From Solitalea canadensis DSM 3403 (GTDB lineage Bacteria; Bacteroidota; Bacteroidia; Sphingobacteriales; Sphingobacteriaceae): a stretch of 64,000 bases of DNA. The notes under the pieces are model-generated. The model was not told the origin of the DNA. It was given only the letters and a program-made list of their open reading frames with translations, and did no database searches. The translations under genes and the position numbers were made by a program. Shown here piece after piece: positions 62,497-62,568 of the stretch. The DNA lies in contig NC_017770.1 in NCBI RefSeq assembly GCF_000242635.2, positions 1,996,669-2,060,668 on the forward strand, written 5' to 3'. Positions within the stretch are counted from its first letter, which is position 1, and each line of letters starts with the position of its first letter.

Positions 62497-62568
62497 GTGC
62501 CCACCCAGGGCATGTTTTTCATAGGTAGATGTGGGGTCGATTAAGAGATTAATCGGCCCTTTTTTTAT
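62497..62568 (+). ncRNA. Structured small RNA, copy 1
   Basis: About 72 nt. The first hairpin (62497-62513, GUGCCC/GGGCAU around loop ACCCA) is followed by the single-stranded core GTTTTTCATAGGTAGATGT (62514-62532). The terminator hairpin (62534-62559) has an 11-bp stem with one G-U pair and a GAGA tetraloop, followed by eight U. A consensus -7 element lies directly upstream. The core is identical to that of the copy at 41165-41183 (- strand), while both stems differ in sequence but keep their pairing. There is no start codon with a useful frame. It stands alone upstream of ubiX (120 bp), but the strong terminator and the second copy elsewhere argue for an independent RNA, not a leader. I cannot name the family. 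Confidence 0.8.

Follow-up and report, generated by a model that had tools for sequence, protein, structure and literature searches.

A multicopy family of predicted small RNAs in Sphingobacteriaceae with a conserved core complementary to translation starts

In Bacteroides the small RNA FopS pairs with susC start regions and represses translation, and this action is counteracted by RbpB (PMC11697453). AUG-AAA-AA starts are typical of exported proteins. The Qrr sRNAs of Vibrio are sibling sRNAs with a common seed, all of them sigma54-dependent and in need of Hfq. In addition, the RNA motifs Flavo-1 (RF01705) and Pedo-repair (RF01715) were described from Bacteroidetes and Pedobacter (PMC2864571). 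A description of an sRNA from Sphingobacteriaceae was not found in the literature searched, and neither was the core motif reported here in the open-access literature searched.

Here we describe what we infer, from sequence alone and without transcript data, to be a previously undescribed family of ~72-nt sRNAs in almost every sampled genome of Sphingobacteriaceae, bacteria of soil and water. Two copies lie in the window, the whole stretch of 64,000 nucleotides of the Solitalea canadensis DSM 3403 genome that was analysed, with the following features.

62487-62494, + strand: -7 element of copy 1, TACTTTTG (TAnnTTTG, housekeeping Bacteroidota promoter), from sequence
62497-62513, + strand: 5' hairpin of copy 1, GUGCCC-ACCCA-GGGCAU, 6 bp, from RNA fold and covariation
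62514-62532, + strand: invariant core of copy 1, GUUUUUCAUAGGUAGAUGU, the proposed seed, from exact match, unpaired in the fold
62533-62567, + strand: terminator hairpin and T run of copy 1, from RNA fold and covariation
62493-62564, + strand: covariance-model match of copy 1, 75.7 bits, E 3.8e-12 (whole genome)
62688-63257, + strand: ubiX-like flavoprotein gene 3' of copy 1, Pfam Flavoprotein 4.5e-40
41214-41229, - strand: sigma54-like promoter of copy 2, TGGCAC-AGTTT-ATGGT, from sequence
41184-41200, - strand: 5' hairpin of copy 2, UCCGGC-UCCCC-GCCGGA, 6 bp, from RNA fold
41165-41183, - strand: invariant core of copy 2, from exact match
41131-41164, - strand: terminator hairpin and T run of copy 2, convergent with the surE 3' end, from sequence and fold
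41133-41204, - strand: covariance-model match of copy 2, 60.6 bits, E 7.2e-9 (whole genome)

Copies in the window and distribution of the family

The window contains two exact occurrences of the core GTTTTTCATAGGTAGATGT, with 0.03 expected from shuffles. Both copies have a 5' hairpin with a C-rich loop of 5 nt, and their terminators consist of an 11-12-bp stem with a GAGA loop and U-G as fourth pair in copy 1 and of an 11-bp stem with a GAAA loop in copy 2, each followed by T7. Fold z-scores against dinucleotide shuffles are -4.45 for copy 1 and -3.38 for copy 2, the core remaining mostly unpaired. The terminator of copy 2 (41133-41164), situated between the sRNA and the convergent surE, possibly works both ways.

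A sequence-only reading of the window had proposed a two-copy family with an identical 19-nt core, a hairpin-core-terminator layout, terminator stems of 10-11 bp with GNRA loops and a -7 element directly before copy 1. The identity of the core at 62514-62532 (+) and 41165-41183 (-), the common layout and the -7 element held; the stems measure 11-12 bp and 11 bp, and the GNRA loop is present in both window copies but not family-wide. The claim of two copies failed: a third exact core copy is found elsewhere in the 5.2-Mb S. canadensis genome, and a covariance model built from relatives detects five members in it, scoring 38.8 to 75.7 bits. The invariance of the 19-nt core held in part, as only UCAUAGGUAGAUGU (14 nt) is common to all five. 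To this the core is reduced in the two weakest members, which keep their hairpins, and the UUUUU stretch of the seed is absent from two of the five copies.

That reading underestimated breadth as well as copy number. When copies were sought in relatives, the core was found with at most two mismatches in 144 of 151 family genomes, which represent 24 of the 25 genera; among the Sphingobacteriaceae genomes listed, exact copies number up to ten per genome. A scan of named genomes for the exact core returned at least 120 rows, almost all of them from Pedobacter, Mucilaginibacter, Sphingobacterium, Solitalea and close relatives; overall, the core is exact at hundreds of loci. In a phylum sample of Bacteroidota the covariance model matched all eight family genomes and none of 288 other genomes, under strict filters by which weak members may be lost. 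Plasmid and phage collections yielded no copy at the sensitivity used, and the core was present in three viral contigs, none with the full architecture. One viral-collection contig (L172:1887-1968, -) carries core and terminator but lacks the 5' hairpin (29.6 bits), and could be a phage-borne variant or equally a chance match. At some loci (L026, L137, L152) three or four sRNA genes stand in tandem, spaced roughly 120-500 nt.

RNA structure, promoters and gene neighbours

The family is a real structured RNA, as shown by covariation: all 16 base pairs of the model, six in the 5' hairpin and ten in the modelled part of the terminator, have two-sided compensatory changes among 107 model-aligned members. 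In total, 229 two-sided cells were observed versus 55.8 ± 5.6 in shuffled and 9-58 in slid controls. The 107-member alignment was fitted to the structure; an unfitted alignment (A1) has the same pair alternation. Variation in loop length lowers the score of the 5' helix, where 76% of cells are paired. The core has a mean unpaired probability of 0.81 and follows a 5' hairpin at 134 of the 149 distinct loci with an exact core. The sequence-only reading had inferred selection on RNA structure from the covarying stems of two copies. The two terminators alone would be weak proof, but covariation is strong across the 107 members and proves the point, and the comparative evidence supports the further proposal of a structured sRNA family with an exposed core.

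Distinct promoter classes are found at fixed positions. Of 133 copies, 87 have the TAnnTTTG element, to whose class the promoter of copy 1 belongs; it lies at -27 to -34 relative to the core, most often at -30, where chance would give 1% per copy. A sigma54-type GGCA-N6-8-TTG element (-24/-12) lies ~44 nt upstream of the core in 30 of 133 copies (chance 0.2%), and the promoter of copy 2, TGGCACAGTTTATGGT, matches it fully at -24 and partially at -12; RpoN is encoded by S. canadensis and by each of the other nine genomes tested. GHAAC-N16-18-CGTA, possibly ECF-type, occurs in 6 of 132 copies with 0.26 expected. ECF-like GHAAC-N16-CGTA elements are also seen upstream in the tandem array at L026. 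On sequence evidence the genes thus have the own promoter and intrinsic terminator expected of a trans-acting base-pairing sRNA, the RNA start site being inferred from the promoter position.

For 67 of 134 copies, a UbiX-like gene begins downstream at a distance of at most 700 nt. Copies of the TAnnTTTG class often precede such a gene, and none of the 26 sigma54-class copies in the set examined does. The ubiX-like gene is a conserved neighbour of copy 1; that it is part of the system is not proven.

Complementary sites and proposed partner transcripts

ACAUCUACCU-AUG-AAAAAC, to which the core is exactly complementary, reads as a translation start region. An anti-core pattern (DNACATCTACCTATG), designed to exclude most sRNA genes, gave 48 matches in the 151 carrier genomes versus 8 for the permuted and 14 for the reversed pattern. 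Among the 47 matches that were read, sRNA genes account for 12. The remaining 35 include 15 plausible gene starts, called by eye, in which the site adjoins the AUG; several of these belong to genes that are orthologous between species. The 288 non-carrier genomes yielded 14 matches to the pattern, the level of the reversed control, mostly within coding sequences and twice at gene starts (15 in 151 carriers versus 2 in 288 non-carriers; Fisher p 4.6e-6). Conserved complementary sites at other loci, as a trans-acting base-pairing sRNA should have, are thereby shown, most strongly in Mucilaginibacter. The earlier proposal had left open whether the core binds mRNA or a protein, and conserved antisense sites favour an RNA partner. 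In the 5' UTRs at L238, L239, L235, L197 and L200, CTACCT motifs recur in addition to the anti-seed that lies at the AUG; these suggest, by inference from sequence, several binding sites per mRNA. A Mucilaginibacter gene for a 45-aa product has a perfect site in its 5' UTR.

In S. canadensis itself 34 start regions pair strongly with the core versus 13 ± 7 for full shuffles, and one of 100 shuffles reached 34. By duplex energy, within the 1.66 Mb taken in stretches from the 5.2-Mb genome, start regions pair no better with the core than with shuffles that keep GUUUUUCAU, and therefore no regulon is resolved in the own genome. Possible targets, which remain candidates only, include a large gene of RHS type and a gene for a lipoprotein (ACATCTACCTATCTAAAAC-ATG). 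An assignment of the gene at L337 as SusC-like was dropped, its sequence suggesting an RHS-type surface protein.

Seven of the anti-core matches fall in a Mucilaginibacter RNA of ~170 nt that lacks annotation and has no Rfam match (L342-L360, for example L198:1440-1640, +). This partner RNA has a very conserved 3' domain, TTGTTCTTTGTTTTGGGTTTAATCAATAGTTTAAATTAATTAGGGGAAAGGGAGC, as well as a terminator and a sigma54-like promoter. Its members were retrieved by the 3' domain alone and not by the site, and all 19 full members have the complementary site; in several, CCUGUG replaces CCUAUG and pairing is kept as a U-G wobble. Duplexes with the core range from -18.3 to -28.5 kcal/mol versus means of -10.1 for shuffled cores, or -12.6 with GUUUUUCAU kept. 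One shuffle in each duplex control set was comparably strong; one of these had exactly the observed mean and was probably the identity permutation. The RNA could be a sponge or possibly a regulator itself.

A second group of sites accompanies a ~50-aa protein family (xxSKLVxRFDNELKxLLMEDLxxF) without a Pfam match, often encoded in tandem (L368-L387; L192, L213, L214). These loci were retrieved by protein similarity, not by the site, and 7 of 10 in Mucilaginibacter have a strong 5' or 3' UTR site (duplex -16 or better). The expectation is 0.06 with full shuffles and 1.36 with GUUUUUCAU kept, and one of 200 seed-preserving shuffles equalled the observed value. Anti-seed sites number one to three per transcript and lie at the start codon, immediately ahead of the terminator or in both places. 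At L214:1502-1815 a small-protein gene is followed by an anti-seed site and directly by a terminator and a cobalamin riboswitch. In another genus, a second sponge-like transcript (L218:1440-1640, +; L219, -) has tandem anti-seed sites ACATCTACCTATG and TTTCTACCTATG, a sigma54-like TGGCACTGGCTTTGT upstream and a terminator. The strong evidence for targets and sponges comes mainly from one genus, Mucilaginibacter.

Proposed mechanism, rival explanations and known systems

The likely explanation, in our judgement, is a multicopy family of trans-acting antisense sRNAs that block translation initiation, joined in at least one genus by sponge-like partners; transcription, repression, sponging, promoter use and the signals involved are inferred. 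Each locus would give rise to a stand-alone ~72-nt sRNA with a protective 5' hairpin, a single-stranded seed and an intrinsic terminator. The seed would pair with the complementary start region of selected mRNAs, covering the start codon and blocking ribosome entry. Since sibling copies with one seed would be transcribed by different sigma factors (housekeeping, sigma54 and possibly ECF), it can be inferred that several signals feed one regulon. In Mucilaginibacter the ~170-nt sigma54-promoted RNA and the 3' UTRs of the small-protein operons would probably sequester the sRNAs. A bolder reading, as apt to prove wrong as right, extends this to a Sphingobacteriaceae-wide network, in which one start-blocking seed under housekeeping, sigma54 and ECF-type promoters is countered by coevolving sigma54-promoted sponges and by multi-site small-protein mRNAs with an exact anti-seed. 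With this family, Sphingobacteriaceae would have a conserved multicopy regulator whose seed can be read and for which there are candidate targets and candidate antagonists, and all of this could be tested directly in strains that grow in culture.

Alternatively, the core could be mainly protein-binding, the multicopy RNA titrating an RNA-binding protein and the complementary sites being secondary. The near-absolute invariance over 18-19 nt exceeds what a many-target seed strictly needs, arrays of three to four copies occur and CAU-AGGUAG-AUG might fold into a small hairpin. Yet the partner sites are the complement of the core and not repeats of it, several of the 19 sponge RNAs preserve pairing through U-G wobbles and no RRM_1 protein, the partner class of FopS, was found in the S. 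canadensis genome, making this explanation unlikely. Still less probable is a role in cis, as a leader or attenuator for ubiX or other genes downstream. It would account for the UbiX-like starts within 700 nt of 67 of 134 copies, but half the copies, all 26 of the sigma54 class included, have no UbiX neighbour, copy 2 of the window is convergent with surE, every copy comes with a promoter of its own and a full terminator, and the core is unchanged whatever the neighbour. A short open reading frame through the core (AUG-UUU-UUC-AUA...) was rejected, as several copies lack the AUG and the invariance is one of nucleotides, not codons.

A mobile or repetitive DNA element without RNA function, such as a REP-like repeat or a recombination site, can be all but ruled out: copies are multiple and some stand in tandem arrays, but stem sequences vary with pairing kept, flanks are unrelated, promoters lie at fixed distances and plasmids and phages yielded no copies at the sensitivity used. 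It is also very improbable that the family is a divergent branch of the Bacteroides FopS/GibS sRNAs. In favor of membership are the same anti-start seed GUUUUUCAU, a similar length, the multicopy state and an alignment of the FopS model to copy 1. The 24.1 bits of this alignment, however, are below the gathering threshold of 56 and level with chance matches elsewhere in the genome (best 23.8), the 5' hairpin is absent from the FopS model, no RRM_1 protein was found in the S. canadensis genome and the model of the new family has no matches outside Sphingobacteriaceae in the phylum sample.

Antisense sRNAs that block initiation, the reading we prefer, can be set beside the described families. 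The earlier reading had been unable to match a named family, and Rfam 15 gave no match at gathering threshold for the window and 14 further loci, and sub-threshold matches to suhB, FopS and anti-hemB were dismissed as chance-level or reflecting layout only. The alphaproteobacterial mmgR/suhB RNA (RF00519) has the same order of hairpin, single strand and terminator and scores 24.6 bits on copy 1, but this is below its gathering threshold of 41, a layout-only match that does not share the invariant core. Flavo-1 and Pedo-repair matched no copy, the sole Flavo-1 match lying ~2 kb from the copy at L130. With the Qrr sRNAs the family has in common siblings with one seed and an involvement of sigma54; its sequence is unrelated, and its siblings use different promoter classes.

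The closest functional analogue is FopS of Bacteroides, although membership fails. The model of FopS run over the S. canadensis genome found nothing above cut-off, only chance-level terminators, the required 56 bits are not reached, and a search for an RRM-1 partner like RbpB gave no PF00076 match at E 0.01 in this genome, while a Bacteroides control genome gives one. FopS (RF04319) and GibS (RF04182) are likewise multicopy Bacteroidota sRNAs of ~65-75 nt in which the anti-start seed GUUUUUCAU is followed by GUA..AGAU-like bases. Unlike the FopS model, where the seed is at the RNA 5' end, the new family has it between 5' hairpin and terminator (hairpin before core in 134/149, RNA start inferred); the extended seed is AGGUAGAUGU as compared to gGUAUUAGAU, and some copies have sigma54-type promoters. 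The remaining mark of FopS, a seed complementary to translation starts, is met by the exact complement and by the enrichment of sites in carriers. That the same anti-AUG-AAA-AAC seed occurs in another architecture, apparently with no RRM protein as partner, suggests that RNAs repeatedly serve to block AUG-AAA-AA starts among bacteria that barely use Shine-Dalgarno sites.
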